From Candidatus Binatia bacterium (lineage in GTDB: Bacteria > Eisenbacteria > RBG-16-71-46 > SZUA-252), in contig DASQJL010000062.1 of the NCBI GenBank assembly GCA_035631035.1, forward strand, positions 1 to 64,000: a DNA stretch of 64,000 nucleotides, written 5' to 3'. The notes below the pieces were generated by a model. It worked only from the letters and a program-made list of their open reading frames with translations. It did no database searches and had not been told where the DNA came from. Numbering within the stretch: the first letter of the stretch is position 1; each line of letters begins with the position of its first letter. Below are positions 1,542 through 44,550 of this stretch, piece by piece. A program made the position numbers and the translations under genes.

Positions 1542-2706
1542 CGAGGGCCATCCACGAAGCGGGCACGAGCGCGTCCGTGCCCAGGCGGGAGCGGAGCCGG
1601 TCGAGCGCGACGTCGAACTGGGATCGGCGGTCCTGGACGGCGGAGGGCCACAGCATGAGCTGCTCCGCGCGCGCGGCGTCCTCCCACGCCGCGAGCCGGA
1701 TGCGCCGCACCCGCACGCGCCGCGTGAGCGCGCCGTCGAGCAGCGCGAGCGCGGCCGCGCCGAGCGCGCGCTCGCCCGAGATCCCCTCCCGAATCACCCG
1801 CCGGGCGCGGCCGTGCCGGCCGTCAGCGTAGATCGCCCCGACCTCCAGACGGTTCGCGGCCGTGCCGCGCCGGCGGATCCCAAAGCCCACTTCCAGTGCG
1901 AGCCGCTCCATGCGCGCGGCCAGCACGCGGCGGTCGTTTGTCTCGGCCGCGAGCGTCTCCTCGGCGACGGCCGTCGGCGGCCGCGCGGCCCGCTCGGGCG
2001 CGCCGTCCAGGCCGCGCGCCTCCCGCCAGAGCGAGAAGGCGGCGGCGCGCCCCACGGCCGCCTCGAGCTGTCCCACCGCCAGCGCCTGCACGTCCCGCAC
2101 GTGCCGCACGGCGAGCAGGTCCAGCCGCTCCGACGCGAATGCCCCACGCGCGGAGGGGAGAACCCGCACCGCCAGCGGCCCGAGGAACGCAGCCTCGCTT
2201 CCCGTGGGAACGTCGAGCAGCTCGCCGTCCGGCGCCAGCACGCCCGCGGCCACCGCGCTCACGAGGCGGGTCGAGGCGACCCCGAGCGTGGGGTGGAGGC
2301 CGAACCATCGCTCGACTTCCCTGCCCGCGCGCGAGGCGCGGTCGCAGGCGTCGCGGTGCGTGCGCGCGAGACCGGTCAGGTCGAGGACGAAGCGTCCCGG
2401 CCTGGGCGCCCCGCCGAGCGGCGCCAACGGCAGGAGGCGGTCGCGGATCGAATCGGAGACGCCCGCGTAGAGGTCGGCGTCGGGCGGGATCGGCACCAGA
2501 TCGCGACAGACGCGCCGCGCCGCCAGGAGCGGCATGCCCGGATAGACCCCCTGCGCCGCCGCCTCGCGCGACGCCAAGAGCACGCGCGGCCGCGACGAGT
2601 CGGGCGGGGCGAGCGCCACCGGGCGCCCCACGAGCTTGGGGCAGCGGCGCCGCTCGGCCTGGATGGCGAAGGAGTCGATGGCGAGATGGACGAGGATGTG
2701 TTCCAT
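1510..2706 (-). CDS. imuB: ImuB, catalytically inactive Y-family polymerase-like protein
   Basis: 398 aa, related to Y-family (DinB/UmuC) polymerases. The first catalytic motif, normally DxDxFF, reads AIDSFA (residues 9-14), so the first aspartate is lost. The second motif, normally SIDE, reads VLDLTG, so the glutamate is lost. This fits ImuB, which does not polymerise but recruits DnaE2. QLMLW at 349-353 looks like a beta-clamp-binding motif, the key functional element of ImuB. The gene starts 34 nt downstream of lexA and runs into dnaE2. No imuA (RecA-like partner) is present; lexA takes its place. The protein is somewhat shorter than the roughly 500 aa of many ImuB proteins. A degenerate DinB is the alternative, but gene order favours ImuB. 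Confidence 0.87.
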   Translation of the reverse strand: MEHILVHLAIDSFAIQAERRRCPKLVGRPVALAPPDSSRPRVLLASREAAAQGVYPGMPLLAARRVCRDLVPIPPDADLYAGVSDSIRDRLLPLAPLGGAPRPGRFVLDLTGLARTHRDACDRASRAGREVERWFGLHPTLGVASTRLVSAVAAGVLAPDGELLDVPTGSEAAFLGPLAVRVLPSARGAFASERLDLLAVRHVRDVQALAVGQLEAAVGRAAAFSLWREARGLDGAPERAARPPTAVAEETLAAETNDRRVLAARMERLALEVGFGIRRRGTAANRLEVGAIYADGRHGRARRVIREGISGERALGAAALALLDGALTRRVRVRRIRLAAWEDAARAEQLMLWPSAVQDRRSQFDVALDRLRSRLGTDALVPASWMALGVALRPSARP

Positions 2707-2740
2707 ATTTATGTACCGGCGCGCCGCAGCGCGCCGGAAC

Positions 2741-3409
2741 CTAGTGGTATTGGCGAACCAGCCCGACCAGCACGCCGCGGATCTCCAAGCGATCAGCGGC
2801 GACCCGCAGCGGCTTCATCGCCGCATTCGCGGGCCGAAGCTCCACCCAGCGTCCAGCCGAGCCCGGCCCATGAAACCGCTTGAGCGTGGCCTCGCCGTCC
2901 ACGATCGCGACGATCGTCTGCCCGTTCTCGGCGCGCCGCGCGCTCCGCACGACGACCACGTCGCCGTCCTGGATGCCGTCGTCCACCATGGAGTCGCCGC
3001 GCACGCGGAGCGCGTAGCGCTCCCCCGCCCCAAGGAGCGAGGCCGGCACCTCGATCTCTTCCGGGATTTCGATCGCCTCGATCGGCCGTCCCGCCGCGAT
3101 CGTCCCGAGAAGCGGCAGCGTGGCGGCTTCGGGGCGGGTCGAGCGCCGGATGCGCGTCTCGAGAGGCGGCGCCGTCCTGTCCGCCGCCCATTCCCGCCCC
3201 GGAGCCGCCGCCGCGAGCCAGCGCTTGGCGTTCGGCGGGGCCGCGACCAGGTAGCCGCGCCGCCGGAGCTGCGCGATCAGCTTGGACACGGCGTTCAGCG
3301 AGGCCAGGCCCAGGTGCCGCCGGATCTCGTCGTACGAGGGCGCGTAGCCGTTCCGCCGCGAGAAGCGGATCACGAAGTCGTAGGCGGCGCGCTGCCGTGG
3401 CGTGAGCAT
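2741..3409 (-). CDS. lexA: LexA repressor (S24 family)
   Basis: 222 aa. Residues 1-65 form a winged-helix domain that opens like typical LexA (MLTPRQRAAYDFV). The C-terminal S24 protease domain has the self-cleavage bond Ala106-Gly107 (GTIAAGRP), nucleophile Ser140 (GDSM) and general-base Lys177 (ATLKRF). It represses SOS genes and cleaves itself when RecA is activated by single-stranded DNA. The open frame continues upstream, but the ATG at 3409 matches the family N-terminus and lies downstream of a good promoter (3537-3565). It is the first gene of lexA-imuB-dnaE2, so the mutagenesis cassette carries its own repressor. Confidence 0.95.
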   Translation of the reverse strand: MLTPRQRAAYDFVIRFSRRNGYAPSYDEIRRHLGLASLNAVSKLIAQLRRRGYLVAAPPNAKRWLAAAAPGREWAADRTAPPLETRIRRSTRPEAATLPLLGTIAAGRPIEAIEIPEEIEVPASLLGAGERYALRVRGDSMVDDGIQDGDVVVVRSARRAENGQTIVAIVDGEATLKRFHGPGSAGRWVELRPANAAMKPLRVAADRLEIRGVLVGLVRQYH

Positions 3410-3536
3410 CTGTTCCCTTCTCCGCGCGAGCGGCGGTTTCCTGCGGGCCCCCGAGGCGGCCGCGTGGCGCCCTGTAAGCAGCCGTCCGGGACCCGCTCCC
3501 CCAGGCGGTAGGAAGACGCCCGAAGGGACATGAATG

Positions 3537-3565
3537 AAGATAGGTGAACAAAAGGTGAAAGTCAA
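3537..3565 (-). promoter_or_regulatory. lexA promoter with direct-repeat SOS operator in the spacer
   Basis: Reading leftward, TTGACT (3565-3560) and TATCTT (3542-3537) are separated by exactly 17 nt, a near-consensus sigma70 promoter. The spacer begins and ends with TTCACC, 11 bp apart. This includes TTTC-N7-GTTC at 3560-3546, one base away from the GTTC-N7-GTTC SOS box known from Alphaproteobacteria. A LexA dimer bound here would block the polymerase directly, so lexA-imuB-dnaE2 is probably autoregulated. The site is also only about 20-40 nt upstream of the divergent SRPBCC gene. The promoter is seen in the sequence; LexA binding is inferred. Confidence 0.6.
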
Positions 3566-3583
3566 GCGTGCTAGGATGCCCGC

Positions 3584-4435
3584 ATGCCCCCGACCGACGT
3601 GGCCGTGTTCCGGTCCTTCCGGGACCCGGTGCTCGCCGTTTGGCCGTATTGGTCGCGCCCCGAATTGCTGGAGCGCTGGCTGGGCGCGGCCGAGGTCGAC
3701 TTGGAAGCGGGTGGGTCCTTCCAGGCGACGCTGTGGAACGGGGACGTGGTGCGCGCGACGATCCTGGCCGCGGCCCCGCCCAGTCGACTGGATCTCGCCT
3801 GGCGCGGCGAGGGTCCCGATGCGGCGATGACGGTCCGCGTCCGGCTCGAGCACCAGGGCCCGGGATGCCGGATCGCGGTCGAGGAGGAGGATCCCGGAAG
3901 CGACGTGGAGCGCGCGCACGCCTGCGCGTGGTGGCATGCCGCCCTGGACGCGCTTCGATCGGCGATCGACGGGAATCCCGACGCCCATCACTGGGGCGAT
4001 CGGCTGCCGATCGTGCTCCGGACTCCCCTGGCGCGCGGGGCATCCGACATCTGGCCGCTTCTCTCCACCGCATCGGGCCTGGCGAAGTGGCTCGCGACCG
4101 CCGAGCGCTTCGATCCGGTGCCGGGAGGGGCCTTCCGCTTCGTGTCGCAATTCAAGGGGAGCGAGATCGTCGAGGAGGGACGCGTGGAGGCGGTCGAGCC
4201 GGACCGGCTGGTCGCGCTCTCGTGGGAGTGGATGGGCCAGGGGTGGCAGGCGGCCACGCGCGTGGAGCTGCGGCTGGAGCCCGATCCCACGGGAACGGCG
4301 CTCGTGATCCATCACTCGGGATTCGACGCCCTCGAGCCGGAGCAGCGCCTGGTCGCGCGCGTGAACTACGCGGCGGCATGGCGGGACGTGATGCACGACC
4401 TGAAGCGGCTGGTGGCGCCCGGCCCGACCGGCTGA
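3584..4435 (+). CDS. Tandem SRPBCC (AHSA1-like) domain protein
   Basis: 283 aa with two consecutive START/SRPBCC-type domains, roughly residues 8-130 and 143-280. Each has the AHSA1 signature: an opening such as PYWSRPELLERWL or PLLSTASGLAKWL, then a proline/glycine-rich PGGAFRF-type strand and a long C-terminal helix (NYAAAWRDVMHDLKRL). These folds bind hydrophobic ligands in a deep cavity; the ligand cannot be told from the sequence. No signal peptide is seen, so it is probably cytoplasmic. It is divergent from lexA and shares its 174-nt upstream region, so LexA occupancy could affect it. It converges with the oxidoreductase gene one base downstream. Confidence 0.75.
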   Translation: MPPTDVAVFRSFRDPVLAVWPYWSRPELLERWLGAAEVDLEAGGSFQATLWNGDVVRATILAAAPPSRLDLAWRGEGPDAAMTVRVRLEHQGPGCRIAVEEEDPGSDVERAHACAWWHAALDALRSAIDGNPDAHHWGDRLPIVLRTPLARGASDIWPLLSTASGLAKWLATAERFDPVPGGAFRFVSQFKGSEIVEEGRVEAVEPDRLVALSWEWMGQGWQAATRVELRLEPDPTGTALVIHHSGFDALEPEQRLVARVNYAAAWRDVMHDLKRLVAPGPTG

Positions 4436-40149: not shown

Positions 40150-41373
40150 CTAGGGCTGCGTTCCGCGGGCCCGCGTCATCTCCTGCTCGAACTCCGCCAG
40201 CCTCCGGCGCGCCGTCGCGGCGAGCGTCGCGTCGCCTCCCGCGAGCGAGATGGCGCGGCGGTAATGATGCGAGATGCTCTCCACCGCGCCGGTGTTGGAC
40301 GGGTCGGTGAGCCGCGCCCGCTCGGCCTCGGCCAGGTAGAGCCGGATCCGCGCGGAGTCGGCGCCCGCGCGTCCCATTTGATAGAGGAAGCGCAGATCGG
40401 TTTCCGCCCGCGCCACGGCCTCGCCGGGGACGCCGGGGTTCCATACCGGCGGCAGCCGGTAGGCGCGCAGCACGTTCGCGTACGCGTCGCCGGGAGGCGG
40501 GGCGCCCGCTGCGGCGCCCGGTGCCGCGTTCTGCATGGCGAGCTTCCGGTTCGCAACGGCCTCGGGGGCCATCGCCGCCGATGGCGCCGGTTGCGCGTCG
40601 CGGAAGCGAGCGGCCTGATCCTTCTCCGCTTCGACCTTCCCGAGCGTGGCGTCCGCCGCGCGGCGCGACGGCTGCGTCTCGACCGGAGAAGGCGCGACCG
40701 CGGACTTCTTGGCGGACTTCGCTTCCCGAGACGCGGACGCGCGGTCTCGCGCCGGAGGAGGGGCGGCCTCGTTCTGGGCGAGACCGCCAGAGGCCACGCC
40801 ATTCTTCGCCTGCGCTGAGTCCGCGCGCGTCTCGCTTCGCGGCGCGCCCACCGTCTCGGGACGCGGCGCCCGCACCCATTCGTTCTGCCGCTGGAAGAGC
40901 GCGACGGCCACGACCACCACCGCGACCGCCGCGACCGCGCCGCCGCCGATTCCGATCCACGGCAGGTGCAGGCGGCGCCGGGGCTCCAGGTCCTCGCTCG
41001 AGGAATCGGGCCGCCGCCGATCCACCCTGGGAACGTCGACGTAGTCCCCGCGCCGGGCGCGCGGTTCGGGCGCGCCGGGCGCCGAGGCCGCGCTCTCGCG
41101 GGTGGTCGCGACCACGTCCACGCCCCGGCCGGATCCGATTTTCCCCATCACGGACTCCGTCATCCGCTCGAAGTACGCCTCGTCCGCTCGGTCGGGTCGG
41201 AGACGCAGCTCGGCTTCGGCGGCGGACATCTCCTCGAGCCGCTCGCTGCACTGGGCGCAGGCCAGCACATGGGCTTCGATCAGCGTGCGGCGGTCGGCCG
41301 TCAGCTCCCCGTCGCGATACGCGAACAGCTCCTCCGACGTGGGGTGGTGCGGGTCGGGCAGGGTTGGGCTCAT
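40150..41373 (-). CDS. Membrane anti-sigma factor with zinc-finger (zf-HC2-like) domain
   Basis: 407 aa. The N-terminal domain has H-x3-C-x2-C, in EAHVLACAQCSERLEE, the ZAS/zf-HC2 signature of anti-sigma factors that trap ECF sigma factors. A single helix near residue 150 (IGIGGGAVAAVAVVVVAVALF) passes the inner membrane. The periplasmic part is a long Ala/Pro/charged linker and a helical C-terminal domain. The start overlaps the sigma factor stop by 4 nt (ATGA). The signal sensed is unknown. Confidence 0.88.
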   Translation of the reverse strand: MSPTLPDPHHPTSEELFAYRDGELTADRRTLIEAHVLACAQCSERLEEMSAAEAELRLRPDRADEAYFERMTESVMGKIGSGRGVDVVATTRESAASAPGAPEPRARRGDYVDVPRVDRRRPDSSSEDLEPRRRLHLPWIGIGGGAVAAVAVVVVAVALFQRQNEWVRAPRPETVGAPRSETRADSAQAKNGVASGGLAQNEAAPPPARDRASASREAKSAKKSAVAPSPVETQPSRRAADATLGKVEAEKDQAARFRDAQPAPSAAMAPEAVANRKLAMQNAAPGAAAGAPPPGDAYANVLRAYRLPPVWNPGVPGEAVARAETDLRFLYQMGRAGADSARIRLYLAEAERARLTDPSNTGAVESISHHYRRAISLAGGDATLAATARRRLAEFEQEMTRARGTQP

Positions 41374-41966
41374 CGGGGCTCCGCTTCCCTCAATTCGTGC
41401 AGCGCTTCGATCAGGGCCTCCCGCGCGCGCGCCAGGCGCGACATGACGGTACCGACGGGCACGGCCAGCGCCTCCGCGATCGCCGCGTACGAGAGGTCGG
41501 CATCCACGCGCAGCGCCAGGATGGTGCGGTGGTCCTCGGACAGCTTCGCGTAGGCCCGTTCCACCTGCACCCGGCGCTCCAGCGCCGGGGCGTCCTGCGT
41601 GGGATCCGCCACGCGATCGGCGAGCGGGGCCGATCCGTCCGCGCCGGGCTCGTCCAGCGGCTCCGCCGCGCGCCGCTTGGCATCCCGGATCCAGGTGAGC
41701 GCGGTGCGTGCCACGATGGTGAGGAACCAGGGGCCGAAGGGGCGGTCGTCCGCGAAGCGGTCGAGGGCGCGGTAGGCTTTGACGTAGCTCTCCTGGAGCA
41801 CGTCGTCGGCGTCTTCATGATTGCGGGTGATCCGTCGCGCCAGGCGATAGCCGCCCCGCCGCGTACGGCGGACCAGCTCGGCATAGGCATCCGCCTCGCC
41901 GTCGCGAATCCGGCGAACGAGCTCGCCGTCGCTCAGCGAGGAGCGGTCGGGTCGGGCCGGTACCAT
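41370..41966 (-). CDS. ECF RNA polymerase sigma factor (RpoE-like)
   Basis: 198 aa. Region 2 spans about residues 20-90 (DADDVLQESYVKAYRALDRF) and region 4 residues 130-190 (YAIAEALAVPVGTVMSRLARARE). No region 3 is present, as in ECF sigmas. The cognate anti-sigma factor follows with a 4-nt overlap. It is likely autoregulated from an ECF-type promoter 20-40 nt upstream. Target genes are unknown; it is divergent from the inverted repeat element and the Tad operon lies beyond it. Confidence 0.93.
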   Translation of the reverse strand: MVPARPDRSSLSDGELVRRIRDGEADAYAELVRRTRRGGYRLARRITRNHEDADDVLQESYVKAYRALDRFADDRPFGPWFLTIVARTALTWIRDAKRRAAEPLDEPGADGSAPLADRVADPTQDAPALERRVQVERAYAKLSEDHRTILALRVDADLSYAAIAEALAVPVGTVMSRLARAREALIEALHELREAEPR

Positions 41967-41982
41967 CGGCCGCCGAATGTAC

Positions 41983-42008
41983 TACGCCCGGATACGGAAG
42001 GATATTCC
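41983..42008 (-). promoter_or_regulatory. Candidate ECF-type autoregulatory promoter
   Basis: Leftward, GGAAT (42008-42004) and CGTA (41986-41983) are spaced by 17 nt, resembling GGAAC-N16/17-CGT promoters used by ECF sigmas. The transcript would begin about 10 nt before the sigma start codon, so the leader is very short. Confidence 0.35.
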
Positions 42009-42055
42009 CGTTTCTTGTAATTGGGGATTTTGCAAGGTCCTACCCGAAGGGCGTC

Positions 42056-42188
42056 GCCAAAGGGCAGCCGGGCGCTACGCGTTTTTGGCGCGAGGGGAAG
42101 CAACCCTCTGGGAAGTGGTCGCCTCGCGGCGGCTTCGCCTTGCTCGGCTCTACACTTCCCTCCGGGTTCTTCCCCTCGCGTCCACAAA
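42056..42188 (-). repeat. Structured repeat, copy A (inverted relative to copy B)
   Basis: This copy shares the flank GGCAGCCGGGCGCTACGCG and the end TCCACAAA with copy B at 42359-42492 in opposite orientation. Its core 42089-42180 folds into a long hairpin: 12 bp (42089-42100 with 42169-42180), one bulged C, 5 bp (AACCC with GGGTT), a 3x3 internal loop and 8 bp (GGGAAGTG with CACTTCCC), closing a 35-nt loop. The 25 paired positions differ from copy B at six pairs, and all six are compensated. This supports selection on the folded form as RNA or as single-stranded DNA. No coding function is seen. Confidence 0.85.
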
Positions 42189-42358
42189 TGCGTTGAGGTC
42201 CGCCGGACGCATTGGCGAGGGCGGGGCGCCCTCACCACCTTCTTTTGGTGTGAAGGTCATCAACGTCGAGGCGTGGAGAGGCTCCGGCCCTGATTACTTC
42301 ACGCATCCAATGAGTGGGGGCGTGGAATCGGATCGGCTGGCGGCGGCACGACGCCGTC
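42189..42358. other. 170-nt spacer between the inverted repeats
   Basis: The stretch has no plausible gene. It contains a local hairpin, TGCGT with ACGCA (42189-42212), and the weaker pair ACCTTC with GAAGGT (42237-42258). It is open in several frames, but composition and lack of start signals argue against coding. Its boundary positions give no clear target-site duplication. Confidence 0.5.
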
Positions 42359-42492
42359 TTTGTGGACGAGCGGGAAGGAACCCGAAGCGGAGTGTAGGAG
42401 CCGAGCAAGGCGAAGCCGCGGCGAGGCGACCACTCCGCGGAGGGTTGCCTTCCCGCTCGCCCAAAACGCGTAGCGCCCGGCTGCCTTCTGGC
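42359..42492 (+). repeat. Structured repeat, copy B
   Basis: Core 42367-42459 folds as in copy A: 12 bp (42367-42378 with 42448-42459), 5 bp (AACCC with GGGTT), a bulged G on the 3' side, a 3x3 internal loop (GAA/GGA), 8 bp (GCGGAGTG with CACTCCGC), and a loop of 36 nt that is nearly the same as that of copy A (GCCGAGCAAGGCGAAGCCG). Stem positions 3, 5, 9 and 11 of the outer helix and 2 and 4 of the inner helix differ from copy A with matching changes on the other strand. The downstream flank repeats that of copy A in reverse. It lies between the ECF sigma gene and the end of the Tad operon. Confidence 0.85.
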
Positions 42493-42519
42493 ACCGGACG
42501 CTCGCACACGTCTACGAAA

Positions 42520-42618
42520 TTACCGCCCCGCCCGCCGACTCTTGTTCTGACCCCGGCGCGTGAGCCACAGAAGGCCCAACCCCACGACCGCGGCCCACAC
42601 GATGATCTTGACCAGCAC
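42520..42618 (-). CDS. 32-residue putative membrane peptide after tadC
   Basis: A GTG at 42618 begins MLVKIIVWAAVVGLGLLWL (one membrane helix), followed by the positive tail TRRGQNKSRRAGR, 32 residues in total. The upstream AGGAGGTGATC is a near full-length Shine-Dalgarno match, with nine nucleotides between AGGAGG and GTG, stronger than that of any neighbouring gene. It lies 29 nt behind tadC on the same strand and would be the last gene of the Tad operon. The start signal and helix make it likely to be translated. It is not a family I recognise. Confidence 0.65.
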   Translation of the reverse strand: MLVKIIVWAAVVGLGLLWLTRRGQNKSRRAGR

Positions 42619-42647
42619 GAGCGATCACCTCCTCGCTATGGGAGACT

Positions 42648-43574
42648 TCAGTGCGATGCGTTTTGAGCGGCGATGGCCTGCGCAAGCTGTATCGCGGCCG
42701 GGCCGAGAATCACGATCAAGAGCGCCGGAAAGATCAGGAACACGAGCGGGAACGCGAGCTTGATGCCCGCCTTGCGCGCGGTCTGCTCGGCACGCTGGCG
42801 GCGCTTGGTCCGCATCGACTCGGCGTGCGCGCGCAGCGACTGGGCGATACTCGTTCCGAGCTTGTCCGCCTGGATCAGCATGGCGGTGAGGGCATAGAGA
42901 TCGTCCACGCCGGTGCGGCGCGCGAGGCGCCGCAGCGCGTCGGAGCGCGTGAGACCGGTCCGAATCTCCTGCCCCACCACGAGCAGCTCGTCGCTCAGCG
43001 CCGGACTCGCCAGCGTGATCTCGCGGCCCACGCGCTCGATCGCGGCGTTCAGGCCCAGCCCCGCCTCCACGCAGACGACCAGGAGGTCGAGGGCGTCGGG
43101 CAGCGCGGTCTGGATCGCGGTCTGCCGGGCAGACCCCTTCATGTAGAGCCAGATCGTCGGCAGGTAGAAGCCGACCGCCGCCGCGATGCCGCCGGAGAGC
43201 ACGATCGAGCCGACCGGGCGCGCCATCGCGAAGTTGACGGCGATCCAGCCCAGACCGAAGACCGCGGCGCCGACGACCTTGGCGCCCAGGAAGACGAGAC
43301 TGGCCTTGGGATCGCGGATGCCGGCGCGCACCAGGCCCGACTGGAGCGCCTCGTTGCTGTCGCCCGACGGGAGGAAGCCGCCCAGCGTCGCCAGGAGGCC
43401 GGCGATGGGCGAGGGCGCATCGGGATCGAGATTGGGACGCGACGCCAGCGCGCGAGCGCGGAGGTCGCGCAGGCGGACGGCGACCGGGTCGCGGTCGCGG
43501 ACGAATACCTGGTAGATCGCAAGCGTGCCGACGGCCAGGGCGAAAGCGAGCAGGATCGTCGAGATCAGGAACAT
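42648..43574 (-). CDS. tadC: Tad pilus inner-membrane platform protein TadC
   Basis: 308 aa with the T2SS F domain (about residues 155-280; ALPDALDLLVVCVEAGLGLNAAIERV) and three to four helices, the last LAFPLVFLIFPALLIVILGPAAI. It forms the inner-membrane base of the pilus with TadB. The ATG at 43574 gives MFLISTILLAFALA, 4 nt behind tadB; upstream starts overlap tadB strongly. Order tadA-tadB-tadC is the usual one. Confidence 0.92.
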   Translation of the reverse strand: MFLISTILLAFALAVGTLAIYQVFVRDRDPVAVRLRDLRARALASRPNLDPDAPSPIAGLLATLGGFLPSGDSNEALQSGLVRAGIRDPKASLVFLGAKVVGAAVFGLGWIAVNFAMARPVGSIVLSGGIAAAVGFYLPTIWLYMKGSARQTAIQTALPDALDLLVVCVEAGLGLNAAIERVGREITLASPALSDELLVVGQEIRTGLTRSDALRRLARRTGVDDLYALTAMLIQADKLGTSIAQSLRAHAESMRTKRRQRAEQTARKAGIKLAFPLVFLIFPALLIVILGPAAIQLAQAIAAQNASH

Positions 43575-43578
43575 GGCA

Positions 43579-44550
43579 TCACACCTTGATGTTGACGATT
43601 TGACGGATCGCGAGTGATCCAAGGAGCTGCATGAGCGCGCCGAATCCGAGCACCGCCCGACCGCTCGGAAGGTCCCACATCTTGTGGAAGTACTCGGGCG
43701 CCACGATCACCATGAAGATGGCGAGCCCGAGCGGCAGGCAGGTGAGGATGGCGCCGGTCAGACGCCCCTGCGCCGTGAACGTCTGGATGTCGCCCAGAAT
43801 CCGGAAGCGGTCGCGGATCAGGCGGCTCGTGTTGTCCAGAACCTCGGTCAGGTTGCCGCCCGTGTCCCGCTGGAGCACCACCGCCGTCACGAAGAACTTG
43901 AGATCGAGGGAGTCCACGCGGTTCGCCATGTTCGTCAGGGCCTCGCGCATTTCGAGACCCAATGCCTGCTCCTCCACGACGATGGCAAACTCGGACCGGA
44001 TCGGTTCCGGCGACTCGTCGGCCACGATCTGCATGGCCGAGGAGAACGAGATGCCCGCGCGCAGGGCGCTTACCAGGAGGTCGAGCGCGTCCGGAAACTC
44101 TTCGGAGAACGCTTTCATGCGAACGCTCTTCTTGTGATGAAGGATCAGAAGAGGAGCGACGCCGCCCACCACCATGAAGACCAGCGCGTGGAGGAGCCGG
44201 GCGAACACGACGTACCCGACGAGGTACGCGATCATGGCGCCGGCCGCCATGATCAGGAGGAACATGCCGACCCGCATCGACGAGCCCGCCTGGTAGAGCA
44301 GCAGCTCCAGGCCGCGGGCCACGGTCATCTTGCGGAGGAACCGGTCCAGGAACGGCATCGAGCTCATGCGGGTGTCCCGCTCGATCGCGAGCGCCGCGCC
44401 GCCCGACGCGCGCAACCGCGCTCGGGGATCCTGGGCGCCGATGCGGTCCCGCAGGCTGCGCGTGCCCTGCTCCTGCTTGCGCAGGTTCATGGCGACGACC
44501 ACGGCCGCGGTGGCCCCGAAGAGGAGAACCGCTACGAACAGATAGATCAT
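43579..44550 (-). CDS. tadB: Tad pilus inner-membrane platform protein TadB
   Basis: 323 aa with an N-terminal helix, two central helices and the T2SS F domain (FPDALDLLVSALRAGISFSSAMQIV), then a C-terminal helix. It pairs with TadC on the membrane and contacts the ATPase TadA. ATG at 44550 overlaps the tadA stop by 4 nt. Confidence 0.93.
   Translation of the reverse strand: MIYLFVAVLLFGATAAVVVAMNLRKQEQGTRSLRDRIGAQDPRARLRASGGAALAIERDTRMSSMPFLDRFLRKMTVARGLELLLYQAGSSMRVGMFLLIMAAGAMIAYLVGYVVFARLLHALVFMVVGGVAPLLILHHKKSVRMKAFSEEFPDALDLLVSALRAGISFSSAMQIVADESPEPIRSEFAIVVEEQALGLEMREALTNMANRVDSLDLKFFVTAVVLQRDTGGNLTEVLDNTSRLIRDRFRILGDIQTFTAQGRLTGAILTCLPLGLAIFMVIVAPEYFHKMWDLPSGRAVLGFGALMQLLGSLAIRQIVNIKV

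Follow-up and report, generated by a model that had tools for sequence, protein, structure and literature searches.

Two facing hairpins beside an ECF sigma factor gene probably belong to a dispersed REP-like palindromic repeat of this genome and one relative

The window (the whole 64,000-nucleotide stretch analysed, from contig DASQJL010000062.1 of a Candidatus Binatia bacterium) contained, at 42056–42492, two hairpin-forming units that faced each other and whose stems differed by matched changes on both sides. The question raised by this locus was whether such a pair represented a structured RNA under selection or a palindromic DNA repeat. The two hairpins were probably a single copy of a REP-like palindromic repeat that is scattered over this genome and one relative; the matched stem changes were real, and palindrome repair at the DNA level can account for them with no need for selection on RNA.

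Layout and fold of the window pair

The inverted pair of structured repeats reported in the earlier note was found where it had been placed, and the locus had the following features:

42056..42190, plus strand: unit A (w1), composed of 5′ foot and long hairpin; covariance model R1 match of 98.5 bits, E 3e-17 (own genome)
42358..42492, minus strand: unit B (w2), the partner that faces unit A; R1 match of 98.2 bits (own genome)
42056..42083, plus strand: foot of unit A, with mini-hairpins GCC-AAAG-GGC and GGGCGC-TAC-GCG
42086..42184, plus strand: long hairpin of unit A, with 35-nt loop at 42118–42152
42387..42438, minus strand: inner 8-bp stem and 36-nt loop (42395–42430) of unit B
42191..42357, no strand: 167-bp spacer between units A and B, with no homology to the spacers of other loci
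41370..41966, minus strand: neighbouring ECF sigma factor gene (Pfam Sigma70_r2 and Sigma70_r4_2), with about 90 bp between its start codon and unit A
42648..43622, minus strand: neighbouring T2SSF/Tad-type pilus gene (Pfam T2SSF, 3.9e-18), stop about 155 bp from unit B

Units A and B were 86–88% identical in inverted orientation; the inverted-repeat arms were 88% complementary at 42056–42150/42398–42492 and 82% complementary at 42150–42188/42359–42397. The fold described earlier, a 25-bp stem closed by a large loop, was confirmed in both units: in each, the long stem comprised 5-bp and 8-bp segments on either side of a 3x3 internal loop and ended in a loop of 35 or 36 nt, the two end loops being nearly identical. 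The folding energies were −74.3 kcal/mol for unit A (z −5.9; none of 200 dinucleotide shuffles as good) and −75.7 kcal/mol for unit B (z −5.0; one of 200 shuffles as good). The earlier extent of the unit held for the hairpin and fell short of the whole conserved unit, which was longer and included the 5′ foot 42056–42083 (GCCAAAGGGCAGCCGGGCGCTACGCG in unit A, able to form two mini-hairpins). The feet of the window pair stood inverted to each other as terminal inverted repeats; the foot was common to all copies, including those in a second genome (G008; see below), and the alignments contained the invariant GC..GCGC...GCG.

The neighbours were as the earlier note had stated: an ECF sigma factor gene plus a zf-HC2 anti-sigma candidate lay to the left of the pair, and two T2SSF (Tad pilus-type) genes lay to the right (Pfam). 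No terminator-like site (GC stem followed by U-tract) and no T-tract were found at 41900–42750, and no Rfam 15 family matched at gathering score anywhere in the window, in agreement with the earlier statement that the pair was neither a terminator nor a known riboswitch. Long open frames crossed the palindromes, in the window at 41977–42666 (plus strand, 229 aa) and 42232–42507 (minus strand, 91 aa); they were taken to be spurious, given the GC-rich, inverted-repeat make-up of the units.

Copies in two genera of the family

The own genome (G000; a 3.35-Mb draft in 135 contigs) was first searched for copies by BLAST, of which the matches at other loci covered mainly the foot and the start of the arm, and R1 was built from seven own units. 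R1 recognized 10 units at 6 loci: (i) inverted pairs at four loci (the window, C12, C48, and C50), with spacers of 167–231 bp and (ii) single units at two loci (C4 and C42). The element feet read AACGAAAGGCGGCTCAGCGC or GCCAAAGGGCGGCCGGGCGC. The copies at unrelated loci were 88–90% identical, while their flanks and spacers were unrelated; C12 and C4 were the exception, being segmental duplicates with similar spacers. A shared spacer as part of the unit was rejected, since spacers differed between all loci except these two. A contig end lay less than 300 nt away at 3 of the 6 own loci and at 11 of 24 loci in G008 (about 5% expected for G008), and copy numbers were probably underestimated because many loci adjoin contig ends. 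The contig ends C12:46489 and C4:25828 (L009 and L010) shared the same 3′ gene end followed by a terminator-like hairpin, the codons of this gene reading like the C-terminus of a secreted protein; these contig-end repeats, together with the palindromes, probably break the assembly.

G008 belonged to another genus of the same family, and R1 found an inverted pair there (38.2 and 38.1 bits); about 24 loci were recognized in this genome by BLAST with G008 sequence. The G008 foot was like the own foot (GGCRGC..GCGC...GCG); loops and stems differed, the stem sequence being largely different. The G008 copies took the forms of single near-perfect palindromes of about 70–190 nt, inverted unit pairs (including C297 and C228), and short internal-deletion copies. 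The palindromes had the inverted ends AACGAAAGG...CCTTTCGTT, both of which were retained in the short derivatives L124, L128, L155, and L158, and the single palindromes terminated in GCCGCCTTTCGTT. The matching sites of G006 or G007, congeners of G008, lacked the element at all three sites compared, with both flanking genes aligned; at one of them, the L120 site, the stop codon in G006 was followed by a short terminator-like hairpin instead of the element.

When R1 was applied to 47 genomes of the phylum, it matched no genome other than the own one under stricter filters, and G008 was added with normal filters. G001 gave weak BLAST matches and no convincing element; a short foot pattern with three mismatches allowed performed no better over the family than its reversed-pattern control; the G008 foot pattern had no match in viral contigs. 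A pattern of foot plus arm start, applied to 84,980 genomes, gave 45 single matches, which were regarded as chance because the best one scored only 20 bits with the covariance model.

The elements were intergenic at the loci examined. A total of 23 of 25 G008 elements started 1–26 nt past the stop of a coding-like frame in sense direction, 15 of them within 15 nt; 2.6% of random positions over the whole window were so placed after a stop, a baseline that would be higher for intergenic positions only. The units sat farther from stops in the own genome (22–160 nt) than in G008, the nearest stop being 22 nt away at C42, 25 nt at C48 (partial frame), 36 nt at C50, and about 155 nt in the window. 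E. coli REPs located no more than 15 nt from the stop codon are known to stall ribosomes and reduce translation (summarised in PMC12306157), and by analogy a similar translation-lowering effect is possible for the G008 copies.

Likeness to REPs and MITEs

The pair is likely to be a copy of a non-coding palindromic element that is dispersed in two genera of one bacterial family and has a layout and position like those of REPs/BIMEs and a MITE-like size. This reading, the mobile palindromic element of REP/MITE type among the options of the earlier note, was the best supported, because there were 10 units at 6 loci with unrelated flanks, a cognate family in G008, and absence at three sister sites. 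The refuting condition set in the earlier note, that no further copies exist, did not hold. The reading was weakened by the absence of any Y1 transposase match in the family's draft genomes (see below), by the lack of target-site duplications, and by the larger distance of own units from stops. Movement in particular was weakened by the purF / pilB-like intergenic region, which was occupied in both genera (C42 of the own genome, L038 at about 1911–3700; C18 of G008, L125) and empty in G006 and G007; the distribution may thus be partly inherited, even as old vertical inheritance, or this region may be a preferred site.

In the proposed scheme, the long hairpin follows the 5′ foot in each unit; units are usually arranged in inverted pairs, and G008 has single palindromes as well. 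We infer that the copies were spread by an enzyme that works in trans and recognizes the foot or the terminal palindrome, and that gene 3′ ends are preferred, either at insertion or through selection; once transcribed there, the hairpin may block ribosomes or exonucleases or help to terminate transcription. More speculatively, these could be large REP-like elements that insert specifically just past stop codons by means of a non-Y1 enzyme, with stems that diverge between genera yet stay self-complementary.

The comparison was extended to known systems. REPs are extragenic palindromes, often inverted dimers folding singly or together, located mostly between tandem or convergent genes near the 3′ end of the upstream gene; their units are 20–40 bp and most of their spacers 20–100 bp, and those of the CGTC superfamily have no dedicated transposase (Di Nocera et al. 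2013, PMC3733652). The element shared with REPs/BIMEs of the GTAG and CGTC superfamilies its repetitive, extragenic, and palindromic nature, inverted dimers, and location at gene 3′ ends, and with CGTC REPs the lack of a dedicated transposase, here in a search for Y1 genes. Unlike REPs, it had units of 100–190 nt (4–5 times longer), stems above 20 bp, and spacers of 140–231 bp, there was no fixed GTAG or CGTC tag by the stem in the window genome, and unlike for GTAG REPs, no RAYT was found in the family. It was therefore called REP-like rather than REP: it departs from REPs in size, spacer length, and the transposase, which was not found, and its tag was not fixed in the window genome and, in G008, was an enriched GTAG at variable distance. 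TIR families are longer, partly self-complementary repeats in dimers that belong to Y1 (TIRYT) transposase genes (PMC3733652); the element resembled them in length, partial self-complementarity, and dimers but had no Y1 transposase found. The element contributes, from a little-studied lineage, palindromes that are long, RAYT-less, and adjacent to stop codons, and it bears on the spread of REPs without a dedicated transposase.

A conventional MITE, derived by internal deletion from a DDE insertion sequence and bounded by long terminal inverted repeats, would likewise be short, non-coding (here 60–540 bp), dispersed, and absent at sister sites, and its inverted ends would be kept in internal-deletion copies, as they were in the four short G008 derivatives. 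This origin is possible though unlikely: target-site duplications, which the earlier note had proposed to look for, did not appear as any consistent direct repeat beyond chance at ten two-ended copies, the units were themselves hairpins, and no parent insertion sequence was seen in a transposase search that covered Y1_Tnp only.

Matched stem changes and the remaining explanations

The dispersed-element reading has to account for the stems as well. The six compensated stem changes claimed earlier were reproduced: among 33 stem pairs shared by the window units, the 5′ sides differed at six and the 3′ sides at the same six (CG>AT, AT>CG, GC>AT, AT>GC, GC>CG, and AT>GC), a full overlap with a hypergeometric P of 9e-7. 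Over seven own units, a 41-pair structure displayed 94.7% standard pairing and 8 two-sided pairs, above shuffles and slid controls. Perfect compensatory changes of this kind commonly count as proof that an RNA is functional, and here they occurred in an apparent dispersed palindromic DNA repeat.

Selection on a transcript should tolerate G.U more than A.C mismatches, and a count that treated both alike is therefore a simple sequence test. It gave no indication of selection at the RNA level: in confident hairpins, with a score of 24 or more, there were 33 G.U versus 37 A.C mismatches (P 0.72) and in all units 57 versus 45, the counts being non-independent because the copies are related. As G.U was not in excess over A.C, the stems had no transcript-strand bias. 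Moreover, three of the six window changes (CG>AT, AT>CG, and GC>CG) had no possible G.U intermediate. Template switching during replication is a documented source of multibase compensated changes in one event, and the hairpins so corrected, described in RNA genes, display two-sided changes without a G-U intermediate (Monttinen and Loytynoja 2022, PMC8794818); the stems analysed here were alike in their multibase compensated changes but lay in a dispersed extragenic repeat. With these three points (no G.U excess, three changes without a G.U route, and the template-switch alternative), the compensated changes alone are not evidence for RNA selection, and the earlier claim that they directly show selection on a folded form was not supported.

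The arm matching fits DNA arm correction and cruciform-level constraint alike, and RNA-specific selection is without positive support. The arms would be kept matched mainly at the DNA level, by template-switch correction or cruciform-level constraint, and the same upkeep would also yield the six compensated changes of the window pair. The 3x3 internal loop had a constant position in the window units and most other own copies. This suggests some constraint on the folded form, on either strand, and weakens pure arm correction, which would erase such a loop.

It is quite unlikely that the pair is a functional structured RNA, either a small RNA or a 3′-UTR element, with a stem preserved by transcript-level selection and a dispersal due to its usefulness. 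Strong folding, two-sided changes above controls, the retained internal loop, the nearly identical window loops, and the sense-strand placement directly past stop codons in G008 argue for it, but loops differed between loci, G008 stems were largely different sequences, no promoter-like site and no Rfam match were found, the stems had no G.U excess, and clear units occurred in only two of the 47 phylum genomes.

It is improbable that the copies are ordinary terminators enlarged by template switching and copied between loci by gene conversion without transposition. The position just past stop codons, the GCCGCCTTTCGTT ends of G008 single palindromes, and the terminator-like hairpin of G006 at the place of the L120 element fit such an origin, but the window had neither a T-tract nor a terminator-like site, and without flanking homology it is difficult to see how interiors so nearly identical were copied between unrelated loci.

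Mobilisation by a RAYT (Y1 HUH) transposase, as in a classical REP/BIME system, would be favoured by REP-like traits (extragenic palindromes, inverted pairs, and gene 3′ ends; PMC3733652) and by the GTAG that 14 of 30 G008 ends had in the 30 nt upstream (3.2 expected from shuffles). It is nonetheless very improbable, given units of 100–190 nt instead of 20–40, a GTAG that lay at variable distance (8–23 nt) and was mostly the stop codon itself, so that it serves as a lead only, no fixed GTAG or CGTC tag by the stem in the own genome (the window units having no GTAG there), and no match to Y1_Tnp (PF01797) in the family's nine draft genomes, among them both carriers, versus 22 of the 47 phylum genomes above cut-off. 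The REP-associated tyrosine transposase that the earlier note had suggested seeking was thus not found in these nine genomes, and a Y1 transposase was set aside as mobiliser of the dispersed element.

Two further observations were made in the relatives. In the sister family f11 (G027–G046), nearly every genome had Y1_Tnp, mostly one each, and this single gene looks like a vertically kept RAYT-type gene; none was found in the window's family. At L121 of G008 (1088–1183), a convergent FlgD_ig-type gene retained a separate short terminator, CGGGGCGGTCC...GGCCGCCCCG-TTTTCGTT, next to the element, and the flanks of this terminator (AACGAAAA/TTTTCGTT) resembled the element ends (AACGAAAGG/CCTTTCGTT).
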